Assembly (NCBI GenBank): GCA_902774305.1
Contig: CACYHY010000017.1
Span: forward strand, 1 to 36,445
DNA from: an uncultured Pseudomonadota bacterium
Lineage (GTDB): Bacteria > Pseudomonadota > Alphaproteobacteria > Rs-D84
Direction of reading: 5' to 3'
Length of the DNA: 36,445 nt
The translations under genes were made by a program, and so were the position numbers. Below are positions 13,239 to 25,461 of the stretch, piece after piece. Numbering within the stretch: the first letter of the stretch is position 1; each line of letters opens with the position of its first letter. The notes below the pieces were generated by a model. That model saw only the letters and a list, made by a program, of their open reading frames with translations, was not told the origin of the DNA and made no database searches.

Positions 13239-14946
13239 TTAATTTTTCTTACGCACTTGAATATGAACATCACGTAATTGCTGTTCGGAAACCTCATTTG
13301 GACTTCCCATCAACAAATCTTGTCCACGTTGATTTGCTGGGAATGCGACAATTTCACGAACACTGTCACCAATGCCCAAAATTTCAGACACCACGCGTTC
13401 AATACCAAACGCACAACCGCCATGTGGTGGCGCACCATATTGAAACGCAGTATATAATCCAGAAAAGTTCTTTTCAACTGCTTCGACTGCAAATTTCAAT
13501 ACCGTTTAACACCATATCGAATTGTGCAGCCTTAATTGTAAATGGATCACGTGTTGATAATTCTTCGATTGAATCAACAATAGGATAAGAGAACGGATTA
13601 TGCGTAAACGCAGGCGCACCACCCCTTTCTTCATCAGGTTCAAAGAATGGGAAGTTATCGACCCAACAGAACGCAAAATCACGTGGATTTACCAAACCTA
13701 AATCTGCGCCCAATTTATTACGCAATTTGCCAGCAGCCTTTGCAGCAGCATCAACATTATCACAAATAAAGAACAACGATGAATTATCACCTGCGATTTC
13801 TTTCAATTTTGCGACACGTTCTGCATCTAACTTTTTTGCAACTGGTCCTTTTGGTTCTTCGGCAAACACGATATATCCCAGTCCACCAAGTCCCAATTCT
13901 TTGACTGCGTATTCACCCAATTTATCAAACCAAGAACGTGGTTTATCAGATGAATTTGGTGCTGGCACAGCACGAACCACCGCACCATTTTCAATTGCAT
14001 TTGCAAAAATACCAAAATCAGACCCACGGAATATTTCAGTTACATCAGAAATCAAAATAGGGTTACGTAAATCTGGTTTATCACAACCATATTTCAACAT
14101 AGCATCATCAAATGATATATGCGGAATTTCTGGATACACGTTTGCATCTGGCGCAAAAGTTTTTACCATTTCCGGCATAATTGCCTCACCTACAGCTTGA
14201 ATATCCGGCAAATCGACAAAAGACATTTCCATATCTAATTGGTAAAATTCCAACAATCTATCTGCGCGCAAATCTTCGTCACGAAAACATGGTGCAATTT
14301 GGAAATATCTATCGAATCCAGACACCTGCAACATTTGTTTGAACATTTGTGGTGCCTGAGGCAGCGCATAAAACTTTCCATGATGCAATCTGGACGGCAC
14401 CAAGAAACTACGCGCACCTTCTGGTGAATCAGCGGTCAATAACGGTGTTTGGAATTCTGAAAAGCCCAAATCCCACATTTTATCTCTTAACCACTTCATC
14501 ATTTTATTACGCATTAAAATATTATAGTGTAGTTTTTCACGACGCAAATCCAAGAAACGATATTTATAACGCAATTCTTCAGATGTTTCTTCATCACCAA
14601 AAACCTGGAAAGGCAACACTTCAGAATTTGTTAAAATTTCACAATTTTGCACTTGAATCTCAATATGCCCTGTTGGGATTTTTTCATTGATGGCGTCCAT
14701 ATCACGCGCAACAACTTTCCCTGTAATTTTAACCACAGATTCTGGGCGAATTTTTTCCACAATTTCATCACCGCCATCAAACACACATTGGGTAATTCCA
14801 TAATTATCACGCAAGTCCACGAATAACAAAGATCCATGATCGCGCTTGCGATGCACCCAACCTGACAATGTAACAACTTCGCCAACATTACTTATGTTTA
14901 ATTCACCACAAGTATGTGTTCTGTATTTAGATTTCAAAGATAACAT
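13239..14946 (-). pseudogene. aspS: Aspartyl-tRNA synthetase, broken by an internal deletion and frameshift
   Basis: Frame one (14946 to 13474) has the OB anticodon-binding domain (LSGWVHRKRDHG, LFVDLRDNYG) and the class II core with RDEDLRADR (motif 2), then runs VLNGIEI and into a false stop. A second frame (from about 13499 to 13239) resumes with VLKFAVEAVEKNFSG and motif 3, GAPPHGGCAFGIER, ending normally. About 20 residues are missing between them, including the conserved SGAIRNH-type loop near the ATP site. The length lost is not a multiple of three. The junction GGTATTGAAATTT can be read in either frame (GIEI or VLKF), suggesting loss between short repeats. As written the protein is inactive, yet aspS is essential, so assembly error, strain variation or a second copy must be considered. 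A T-box-like leader precedes it. Confidence 0.85.
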
Positions 14947-15128
14947 TTTGGTCCCTTTTTTGTTTTCTTAGGCACCAACAAAATATGGATTTTTTTGGCA
15001 CCCTGCTCTGTTAATATCGGGGCGCGATTATAATTCCGCGCGGTGCCACCCGAATTTATCACTTTGACTTGGGTTTTGGTTCCTCCATGGTTGTCAATCA
15101 TTTCAACGGTACCGCGCCCGAAAAACAT
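14947..15128 (-). promoter_or_regulatory. T-box-like riboswitch leader of aspS
   Basis: The minus strand carries the exact T-box core GGGTGGCACCGCG (15051-15039). Around it a canonical antiterminator can be drawn. Helix A1 is TCGGG (15053-15049) with CCCGA (15021-15017). The 7-nt bulge is TGGCACC. Helix A2 is GCGCG (15041-15037) with CGCGC (15026-15022), closing a 10-nt loop. The bulge TGGC complements the 3' end GCCA, i.e. discriminator G, as in tRNA-Asp. A GAC (Asp) triplet followed by A lies at 15095-15093. It may be enclosed by GGTACC/GGAACC, which would be a very short stem I. Two GGTGCC copies downstream could compete for GGCACC, but neither is followed by a U run, so control may be translational. 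Stem I and the switching mechanism are uncertain. Confidence 0.72.
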
Positions 15129-22950: not shown

Positions 22951-25461
22951 TTAATCATTTATAATACCTTTGCCGAACATTTTTTTTATAAATAATTTTT
23001 CTTGTTTTTCTTTGTTTTCTTTTTTTTCTTGCTCATGCGCAGCACGTTCAGCATCACGTTTATTTAACACATTAATAATACCGTCTTTGAATTTATTTGT
23101 TTTTTCTTTTGATATTTCAACAGAATTTTCTACTTTTTTGTTGTGCTCTTTATCCACAGCCCGTCCAAGTCTTTCATCAAAATTCACGACCTTTTCTACC
23201 GCATTATAAACCCCTTTATAGAGTTTTGCCACTGGTTTTGAAATCATACCAATTTGTTGTGCCTCACGCAACTCTTCTTCAAATTCACGTTTATTGTCCG
23301 CAGGACTTTGCACAATATCTTTTGCCGTCATATCACGTTGTTGTTCTATTTTTTCCTCACGTTTTTTACCAATCGCTTTAAAATCAGCTATAAATTTATC
23401 TTTATCGTGTTCAGATTTACCGTATTGACCCGACAACAATTGTTTATATTGATTGGCCATACTTTGTGAAATAACTCCGTCACGCGCAGAACTTGATATA
23501 TATTTAGTAAATTTATCTATTTCATAATTAGCCTCGCCAACATTTTCTCCATCCAGAGCTTTTCTATAATTATCTATAAATTCCTGCATCTTGCCAGAGA
23601 ACTCTTCCCTAAGATCTTTTTCTACTGATCGCCCCATATTAAACATACCAAATTTTGCTTTTGGATCTTTGGTTTTTTCTGGTTCAGACATTACAGTTTT
23701 TTTACCCTGTTTATCTGCGATTTTATCTTGCTGTTGCATTTCATAATCTAATTTTCTTTTATCATCGGCAACACTTTGCACAATATCTTTGGCTTTTTCT
23801 GGACGCTGTTGCGGCATTTGTCCTTTATTAACAATTTCATTCAAAGATTTCACCGCATCTTCATGCAAATGAACAGAAAACGCCCCACTTTGCACTTCTC
23901 GCAATGGTCGTCTTAATTCATCTGCCACATCGTTAGAAATCACCCCAGCTTTTGCTGCGGCATTAATTTCATTTGCCAATTCAACAAATGAACGCGATGT
24001 ATCCTTGAAAGATTTTCTTTCCACCGCATCAGTGTATTTTTGTATTGCTTTTTTCACAGAATCCATGCTTGGTGTCAAATGTCCACCATCTGCTTTAACC
24101 TGTTCTTCGGGCAATTTGCGTTTATCATCAGCAGGCTTTTTATCTTCTGTTTTTTGTGGTTCTTGTTTTTTTACACTTTGCTTGTCCGCCACTTTATCTT
24201 GTTGTTGCAACTCTTCCGGCAATTTGCGTTTATCATCAGATTGACTTTGCACAACATCCTGTGCGCTCATTTCGCGTTGTTGAACAATCGTTTGTTCTTT
24301 TGCATCTTTTGTATCACTTAAAAAATCATCTACACCTTGTTGTAATTTATCTAAATCATGCCAAACATCTTCAAAAGTAGCACTAATAGATTCTAAATAT
24401 GGCTTAATTTGTGCCATTTCATCCATAGCCTTGTCAAAATCATACTTAAATTTTTCTTTATCAAAATCTTGATTCAAATCATCAACCAATGGTTTTAATA
24501 TAGATGCCACCTGGGCATTTCCTTGTGCTGTCTTCTCTACCCCTTCTGAGCGCATTTCTGAATAGCCCAACGCTTTTTCATATCTTTTTGTAATATTTTC
24601 CTTTAATTTGTTAATTTCTTTTATTTCTTCTTCCGATAAATTATTTTCTTGCCTTTTATCATATTCATCGGCTTTGGCTTTTGCATTTGCATCAATTTTT
24701 TGATTTGCTTCTTTTATGCCATGTACAATATTTTTAACAGCATTACCTATATTCTGGCCCAACACAGCGGCATCTTCAACAATACTTTTACTTTGTGGTT
24801 TTGCCGCCTCGCTTTTTTCTAGACCTTCTTTTTCTTTTCCATCTTTTGACAATGCATTTTGTAACGCTTTATTAAATTCACTAATTTTATCATTACACAA
24901 CTGTTCATTGAATATATTATCTTTAATTTCTGTCAAAGGCTTTAATATTTCTTCTGCAGTTTCACGCGAAATTTTTTGTTCTTCTAAGCCTTGTGTAATT
25001 GCATCGCCAACCTTGCACAACGCATCCACAGATTTCAATGGGCCGGCACTATTGTATGATTGCAAAAACTCATTCATTTGAAGTTGCAATTCCTGCAATA
25101 CAGCTTTGTCATCTTTATTATCTTGCCAGTATATTGAATATCCCATACTCCCCAATGATTTTTCTAATTTTTTATCAGCCACACCAACATCTTGTTCATA
25201 ATTATTATTCAACTTTAATAATTCTTGAACTGTTTCATTTGGTTCATATCTAAACCTATCAATTAAATTCCAATACTGATTAACCATTTGTTTTGATAAT
25301 GGTTTTTGACCATCACTTTCCGCATCTTCTAACTCAAACCGCAATGCATTAAAAGCAGCCATAGATTCATCACTATACAGTGTGCCTTCTTGTTCTAAAA
25401 CATTTCGTAATTGCACAATTCTTTGATGTAAATTATCTAACACTTCCAAAGTTCTTTTCAT
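22951..25461 (-). CDS. Large helical repeat protein, unknown function
   Basis: The protein has 836 aa, almost entirely hydrophilic helix, with no signal peptide or membrane segment. A helical unit recurs, recognised by words such as AKAGVISNDVADELRRPL, ARDGVISQSMANQYKQLL and EQKISRETAEEILKPL. Three linker motifs of the form A-x-D-I/V-VQS-xx-D-D/N-KR occur at regular intervals. The C-terminus is a basic coiled coil (about 760-836). The start is ATG at 25461 with GGGAGCTACCTT upstream. It lies after gyrB behind a strong terminator-like hairpin and leads the operon with the JAMM-like and glycosylase genes. Confidence 0.75.
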   Translation of the reverse strand: MKRTLEVLDNLHQRIVQLRNVLEQEGTLYSDESMAAFNALRFELEDAESDGQKPLSKQMVNQYWNLIDRFRYEPNETVQELLKLNNNYEQDVGVADKKLEKSLGSMGYSIYWQDNKDDKAVLQELQLQMNEFLQSYNSAGPLKSVDALCKVGDAITQGLEEQKISRETAEEILKPLTEIKDNIFNEQLCNDKISEFNKALQNALSKDGKEKEGLEKSEAAKPQSKSIVEDAAVLGQNIGNAVKNIVHGIKEANQKIDANAKAKADEYDKRQENNLSEEEIKEINKLKENITKRYEKALGYSEMRSEGVEKTAQGNAQVASILKPLVDDLNQDFDKEKFKYDFDKAMDEMAQIKPYLESISATFEDVWHDLDKLQQGVDDFLSDTKDAKEQTIVQQREMSAQDVVQSQSDDKRKLPEELQQQDKVADKQSVKKQEPQKTEDKKPADDKRKLPEEQVKADGGHLTPSMDSVKKAIQKYTDAVERKSFKDTSRSFVELANEINAAAKAGVISNDVADELRRPLREVQSGAFSVHLHEDAVKSLNEIVNKGQMPQQRPEKAKDIVQSVADDKRKLDYEMQQQDKIADKQGKKTVMSEPEKTKDPKAKFGMFNMGRSVEKDLREEFSGKMQEFIDNYRKALDGENVGEANYEIDKFTKYISSSARDGVISQSMANQYKQLLSGQYGKSEHDKDKFIADFKAIGKKREEKIEQQRDMTAKDIVQSPADNKREFEEELREAQQIGMISKPVAKLYKGVYNAVEKVVNFDERLGRAVDKEHNKKVENSVEISKEKTNKFKDGIINVLNKRDAERAAHEQEKKENKEKQEKLFIKKMFGKGIIND
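23291..24262 (-). repeat. Three copies of a VQS-DDKR linker motif, about 470 nt apart
   Basis: Copies lie near 24262-24229 (DVVQSQSDDKRKL), 23795-23758 (DIVQSVADDKRKL) and 23325-23291 (DIVQSPADNKREF), with a partial copy DDKRKLPEE near 24132-24112. The spacing of about 156 residues implies duplication of a helical-domain-plus-linker unit. Confidence 0.7.

Follow-up and report, generated by a model that had tools for sequence, protein, structure and literature searches.

A reduced T-box-like leader before aspS in a lineage of Alphaproteobacteria, with predicted translational control

The leader of aspS in an alphaproteobacterium of the order Rs-D84, at positions 15128–14947 on the minus strand of the window (the whole stretch of 36,445 nucleotides analysed here), is by sequence comparison a T-box element by descent. 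By all comparative signs it behaves like a translational T-box, with tRNA sensing as a prediction, and we consider it probable that it represents a miniature form that senses tRNA-Asp or tRNA-Asn. Four T-box classes have been described (PMC10482949), and as judged from its predicted structure the leader fits none of them.

T-box core and distribution

An exact copy of the T-box core, GGGTGGCACCGCG, lies at 15051–15039, with the ATG of aspS (14946) 93–105 nt downstream; by our own estimate, a given 13-mer would occur exactly about 0.001 times in 36 kb by chance, counting both strands. Around it, and on the minus strand like all features of the leader given below, helix A1 (5' strand 15054–15049) shows UUC/GAA and UCA/UGA covariation, the 7-nt bulge UGGCACC (15048–15042) is invariant in all aligned leaders, and helix A2 (5' strand 15041–15038) is likewise invariant. 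The 3' strands, GCGCCCCGA (15025–15017), comprise A2 at 15025–15022 and A1 at 15021–15017. As is diagnostic of the T-box family, the bulge sits between A1 and A2 and its UGGN adjoins A1.

The initial annotation had proposed a T-box-like leader before aspS, with an antiterminator-like A1/A2 pair around a TGGCACC bulge, and had named a lack of covariation in relatives as a possible refutation. Both proposals are borne out by the core, the covarying A1 and the invariant bulge, and the covariation found in relatives is very strong. The Rfam covariance model RF00230, also suggested as a check, could be aligned with the whole leader, scoring 33.1 bits (E 7e-6) against a gathering score of 93. That score was reached neither by the window leader nor in any of 59 relatives' genomes, and a standard Rfam scan misses the leader because 33.1 bits is far below it.

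Structural alignment of 64 leaders supported four helices, namely the basal and inner helices of Stem I, A1 (three covarying and three invariant pairs) and A2 (four invariant pairs). Paired cells amounted to 94.4%, against 78.7% in shuffles, and the covariation score was 0.503, compared with 0.194 after shuffling and no more than 0.15 for slid controls; the pair counts come from related sequences, and independence is overstated to that extent.

The host, already taken to be alphaproteobacterial, belongs to Candidatus Enterousia in the order Rs-D84, and the window AspRS is up to 97% identical to that of rumen and gut MAGs. The genomes of Rs-D84, the alphaproteobacterial group that includes Enterousia, measure about 1 Mb and lack amino acid biosynthesis (PMC12306168). 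The core precedes aspS in all 80 loci gathered by protein similarity, every one labelled Alphaproteobacteria, proteobacteria, Rickettsiales or Enterousia. A covariance model built from the leader (R1) had matches in 167 of 201 genomes of the order; among 385 genomes sampled evenly across the class, it found only Enterousia, one Stem II-type relative (G288) and a single chance site. The chance match, in a distant alphaproteobacterium (G448), was rejected, as the T-box core is missing there. All genomes compared are MAGs. By these comparisons the leader is no isolated case and is conserved in Enterousia and in the majority of the remaining genera of its family; chance and contamination are excluded as explanations.

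Families f2, f3, f94 and f95 and genus g28 carry aspS T-boxes with an ultrashort Stem I, Stem II and IIA/B, and in the remaining genera sampled from the window's family, aspS is preceded by the stripped form. Outside the order, the aspS T-boxes L215–L218 (f94 and f95) present an ultrashort Stem I and Stem II, and three of them have UGGCACA, not UGGCACC. Other families of the order contain transcriptional T-boxes (UGGUACC; L004, L006 and L008) before an archaeal-type tyrosyl-tRNA synthetase, with clear terminators in L004 and L008. One alphaproteobacterial MAG (G417) bears a canonical T-box above the Rfam cut-off, with a terminator (L214), before a gene that looks like an aromatic-pathway DAHP synthase; its contig is possibly a contaminant.

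Upstream of the leader, a sigma-70-like promoter match, TTGCAA-17-TATTAT (15163–15135, minus strand), predicts a start near 15128, and the earlier figure of about 75 nt before the T-box is correct. Shuffled sequence yields such consensus matches at least as often (1 found in the real sequence, 1.5 expected in shuffles); in 54 of 80 relatives, a -10-like hexamer occurs within the 50 nt preceding Stem I. For 24 of 80 species (L104–L131 and others; GGGCACCA), the leader starts at most 60 nt from the 3' end of a tRNA gene, which is tRNA-Thr where read, and it may be cotranscribed with this tRNA and cut from it.

The aspS gene itself (14946–13474, minus strand; start codon 14946–14944) encodes a bacterial-type AspRS (NF001750, 578 bits) that is broken after residue 490, the AspRS of relatives being intact at 590 aa. 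The interruption in the window assembly, near 13490, consists of an internal deletion and a frameshift: at 13474–13500, after GIEICS, the stretch GGLRNYNPEVMKKCFEIAGYPI of the relatives is missing and the frame shifts, leaving 490 aa. Either the assembly is at fault here, or the lesion is real and affects a genome with a second AspRS. Elsewhere in the window, at 23268–24264, a 58-nt direct repeat occurs three times with a spacing of 468–471 nt, within the open frame 22951–25461.

Stem I, the specifier and the Asp/Asn pathway

Stem I spans about 36 nt and, as the initial annotation had anticipated, is of the ultrashort kind, with short covarying helices on a kink-turn pattern. Its basal helix (5' strand 15113–15108, 3' strand 15083–15078) has six pairs, each with changes on both sides among the relatives, and 89% of cells paired. 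Between this helix and the inner (NC) helix, the kink-turn residues, three bulged bases followed by tandem G-A/A-G, are practically invariant: on the bulged strand (L1–L3, then G, A and 3b; 15107–15102) U, G and A are constant in 64 of 64 aligned leaders, and on the non-bulged strand (3n, G and A), included with the 3' strand of the inner helix in 15089–15084, the A is invariant and the G is found in 63 of 64. The inner helix (5' strand 15101–15099) covaries over its three pairs, with GUG/CAC, AUG/CAU, GCG/CGC, ACG/CGU and CCG/CGG variants.

The apical loop AUUGACAAC (15098–15090; 9 nt) follows the pattern N-Y-Y-[RAC]-R-M in all of the 100 leaders counted for loop and specifier. Its specifier is GAC (Asp) at 15095–15093; of these leaders, 81 have GAC and 19 have AAC, and the base 3' of the specifier is a purine, A or G, in 100/100. 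A specifier GAY overlapping the inner helix was also considered and was dropped, since some species have GCC, GTC or GGC there.

The elbow-binding motif (IDTM) is missing, and none of the aligned leaders contains Stem II, pseudoknot IIA/B or Stem III; an A-rich linker of about 25 nt leads from Stem I to A1. Within it, the stemless AAGUGAUAAA (15064–15055) takes the place of RRRxG-Stem III-AA in known T-boxes. This segment is conserved (AAGUKAUAA-like), cmscan aligns it with Stem III deleted, and AAGUG-AU-AAA is what is left there.

The loop, Y-U/Y-N-N-N-R-A/C, has the pattern of a tRNA anticodon loop, and pairing between loops with complementary anticodons is far stronger than that with a free triplet. 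Loop-to-loop pairing could possibly replace the lost parts, as could a kink-turn-binding protein. The likeness of the loop (Y-U-N-N-N-R-A) to an anticodon loop, together with the missing Stems II and III, would also suit a T-box-derived operator that binds no tRNA, in which AspRS would bind Stem I as an anticodon-arm mimic and repress its own translation, as E. coli ThrRS does in thrS autoregulation. We judge this improbable: the loop toggles between GAC and AAC at the first position, like Asp and Asn codons, whereas a mimic of the anticodons GUC and GUU would vary at the third. Moreover, UGGCACC, A1 and A2, all invariant or covarying, would be pointless without a tRNA 3' end, as would a bulge base that fits G73.

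A frame (MIDNHGGTKTQ...) also runs through the window leader, and conservation of an encoded peptide rather than of the RNA had been foreseen as a possible refutation of the T-box. An ATG, GTG or TTG does stand before the loop in 74 of 100 leaders, but the frame closes within 15 codons in most of them, spacings fall in all three phases and the changes in the helices are non-synonymous; a conserved leader peptide acting as an attenuator is hardly credible.

The GAC specifier before aspS agrees with the proposed match between the leader and the downstream synthetase. One gene each for tRNA-Asp(GUC) and tRNA-Asn(GUU) was found in the same genome, both with G73 and ending in GCCA, which fits UGGC of the bulge in either case; the bulge C complements G73 of tRNA-Asp, as had been stated, and also that of tRNA-Asn. 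On the AspRS protein tree, the GAC/AAC state changes 16 times, with at least 13 changes forced by supported branches.

None of 114 genomes of the order has an AsnRS above the curated cut-off, and 109 of the 114 have GatB; Asn-tRNA must therefore arise from Asp-tRNA-Asn. The GAC/AAC alternation suits genomes that lack AsnRS and have GatCAB, in which tRNA-Asn too has to be charged by AspRS. This route needs a non-discriminating AspRS or a second AspRS (PMC4206432). A non-discriminating enzyme would make either tRNA a useful signal, which would explain the toggling of the specifier. A tie between AAC and a missing second AspRS was considered and was not seen, as G016 and G131 have both AAC and a second AspRS. 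Seven genomes without AsnRS (G155, G112, G141, G178, G117, G097 and G077) encode AsnA/AsnRS-like proteins of about 340 aa, with no T-box in front of the AsnA-like genes in these seven.

A second T-box is present in the genome of the window (L050, G000:C29, minus strand). It carries AAC, is class III-like with Stem II and IIA/B, and has a synthetase gene downstream, an archaeal-type aspartate--tRNA(Asn) ligase; its RF00230 match is weaker than that of the aspS leader. Within this genome, tRNA-Asp would accordingly be predicted as the ligand of the T-box of the bacterial AspRS gene, and tRNA-Asn as that of the T-box of the tRNA-Asn ligase. At the end of a contig, a 2-isopropylmalate synthase-like gene is preceded by a near-copy of the AAC ligase T-box (L259, G009:C24:1-1200; L035), either a chimera or a real recruitment.

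Regulatory output and the proposed switch

Three further segments lie between the antiterminator-like helices and the start codon. Element 2, GGGUGCCA (15003–14996), complements the whole T-box bulge and carries a tRNA-like GCCA; element 3, UUGGUGCC (14978–14971), can pair with element 2 or with the Shine-Dalgarno region; and element 4, the Shine-Dalgarno region GGGACCAA (14955–14948), covaries with element 3. A GGTG[CT][CT] segment (element 2, usually GGGTGCCR) is found at the same place in all 96 long leaders. Element 3 varies between species (for example GCGCCC, GACACC and TCGCC), and so does the Shine-Dalgarno (GGGACC, GGTGT and GGCGA).

The pairing of element 3 is stronger with the Shine-Dalgarno of its own leader (-7.4 kcal/mol) than with those of other species (-6.4), and stronger with its own element 2 (-11.2) than with others (-10.3). 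For both partners, 0 of 2000 permutations in the swap tests were as good, relatedness being controlled in part. The bulge and element 2 hardly vary, and their pairing rests on complementarity rather than covariation.

Two folds of the leader were compared, one with helices A1/A2 formed (ON) and one with the bulge paired to element 2 (OFF). They are nearly equal in the window leader (-30.7 and -31.1 kcal/mol, respectively); ON lies below OFF in 42 of 61 leaders, with a mean gap of 1.9 kcal/mol that is within model error. The single minimum free energy fold of the window leader is no better than those of shuffles (z -0.04).

Most leaders of the sister genera lack elements 2 and 3, and their Shine-Dalgarno region itself is GGTGCCA or a close variant; in 13 such direct leaders it has 5–7 pairs to the bulge. 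Within four sampled segments, a bulge-matching Shine-Dalgarno was found before aspS only (4 of 41 genes). Three leaders without elements 2 and 3 (L042, L047 and L132) have sites of the GGGACC or GGGTCC type, with a poor fit to the bulge.

Comparison and folding place the Shine-Dalgarno sequestered in one of two mutually exclusive folds, and no terminator-like site was found within the leader. The output is most likely translational rather than by termination. Most T-boxes act on transcription, and the tyrosyl-tRNA synthetase T-boxes of the same order do have terminators, which would speak for a transcriptional T-box with an unrecognised, for example Rho-dependent, terminator. However, a Shine-Dalgarno that covaries with element 3, and that in sister genera complements the bulge, stands against such a device, as does the lack of a terminator-like site, and we give it little credence.

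Comparison supports the structure, the specifier with its switches, the complementarities and the absence of a terminator. In the translational mechanism that we favour, Stem I, built of two short helices on a kink-turn, would expose GAC or AAC in its apical loop for pairing with the anticodon of tRNA-Asp or tRNA-Asn, both of which the AspRS system serves because there is no AsnRS, and the 3' GCCA of the tRNA would pair with UGGC of the 7-nt bulge. Uncharged tRNA would hold the A1/A2 helices and the bulge in place (ON); with charged or absent tRNA, the bulge would be free for the leader segment GGUGCCR, a mimic of the tRNA 3' end. In the sister genera the Shine-Dalgarno itself serves as this segment, so that its pairing would block ribosome binding directly. 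In Enterousia, element 2 would occupy the bulge and element 3 would mask the Shine-Dalgarno (OFF), until tRNA drives element 2 off the bulge, so that element 2 pairs with element 3 and the Shine-Dalgarno is freed (ON). The simplest reading would be a direct competition of tRNA GCCA and mRNA GGUGCCA for one bulge, to which the Enterousia relay adds a strand pair, inverting the signal twice, so that the sense of the switch would be kept. That tRNA is bound, that its aminoacylation is sensed and that the switch runs in this direction is what we infer.

The strand that captures element 2 when OFF would be either the bulge or the 3' strand of A1/A2, GCGCCC, both being able to pair. A canonical OFF state, in which GCGCCC pairs with GGGUGC of element 2 and the complementarity of the bulge is a by-product, seems to us rather unlikely, if worth keeping in view. 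The two strands are indeed complementary, and on inspection element 3 repeats the A1/A2 3' strand; the likeness points to a likely duplication. On the other hand, the Shine-Dalgarno of sister genera matches the bulge over 7 nt, and in some Enterousia leaders an extra helix, AAUCUUA/UAAGAUU, nests with the pairing of bulge and element 2 and would cross that of GCGCCC. This helix, between AATCTTA in the A2 loop and TAAGATT before element 2 (L059–L072 and others), is compatible only with the fold in which element 2 is on the bulge, and is weak (1 of 2000 permutations). A palindromic insert of about 30 nt, such as TCCCACTTCGCCAAGGCTTCGTGGGA, separates element 3 from the Shine-Dalgarno in L062, L079 and some seven further leaders; it may be a small mobile repeat that the switch tolerates.

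Relation to known T-box classes

The closest features are those of the class III ileS T-boxes of Nocardia farcinica and Mycobacterium (PMC10482949, PMC10651847), which share a short Stem I on a kink-turn without the elbow motif, a specifier in the apical loop, the UGGN bulge, Shine-Dalgarno control and an aminoacyl-tRNA synthetase as target. Class III, actinobacterial and before ileS, needs Stem II and IIA/B, and deleting the pseudoknot IIA/B costs more than 1000-fold in binding (PMC10482949, PMC10651847), whereas the alphaproteobacterial aspS leader lacks Stem II, IIA/B and Stem III. The apical loop also differs, with 5–6 nt in class III and 9 nt in the aspS leader.

Class II glyQS (PMC10482949, PMC7583486) shares the absence of Stem II, with a single-stranded linker in its place, but has a long Stem I with the elbow motif and Stem III, none of which is found in the aspS leader. 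Class II is glycine-specific and relies on the strong codon pairing GGC:GCC, in contrast to GAC:GUC or AAC:GUU in the aspS leader. AAC:GUU is a weak triplet pair, and the affinity of tRNA capture is therefore a real problem for the mechanism that we favour.

Current models hold Stem II to be essential where Stem I is short. Stem III has been called indispensable, as an antiterminator without it hardly binds tRNA, and charged tRNA is held to be rejected mainly through the G-U pair at the base of A2 (PMC7583486). All 64 aligned leaders have G-C in place of this usual G-U wobble.

These features could describe a fifth T-box architecture, a reading that we put forward tentatively and stop short of preferring. 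Stem I and the bulge alone would capture the tRNA, by loop-to-loop pairing, without elbow motif, Stem II or Stem III; the mimic GGUGCCA would read charging by competing for the whole bulge, at the Shine-Dalgarno site or in a four-strand relay; and the specifier would drift freely between the two tRNAs of one synthetase.

T-boxes had been described as rare or absent in Alphaproteobacteria. The range given in the surveys consulted covers Firmicutes, Actinobacteria, Chloroflexi, Deinococcus-Thermus and a few deltaproteobacterial leuA leaders (PMC2494555, PMC3766115). The latter, from Geobacter and Pelobacter (PMC2494555), are the only proteobacterial T-boxes named in the open-licence literature surveyed and have typical T-box elements, in contrast to the alphaproteobacterial aspS leader. 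A link to Asp/Asn-tRNA supply through tRNA-dependent amidation is shared, as far as the cited accounts describe them, with Clostridium acetobutylicum T-boxes of the amidation pathway (Saad 2012, 2013, cited in PMC4206432); those are of a Firmicute, whereas each Enterousia leader has one specifier, which alternates between species. In TBDB, the translational model was searched only in Actinobacteria and on truncated matches of its other model (PMC7778990), which would explain why the aspS leaders were overlooked.

Taken together, the lineage-wide set in Alphaproteobacteria extends the range of T-boxes and indicates that such leaders escape standard searches. It presents, within one family, a natural loss of Stem II, IIA/B and Stem III with surviving intermediates, through which the minimum for tRNA recognition and charging control becomes testable, so far approached mainly with deletion mutants of long T-boxes. 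The repeated switches between GAC and AAC, in turn, form a naturally occurring set of specifier changes linked with the Asp-tRNA-Asn pathway.
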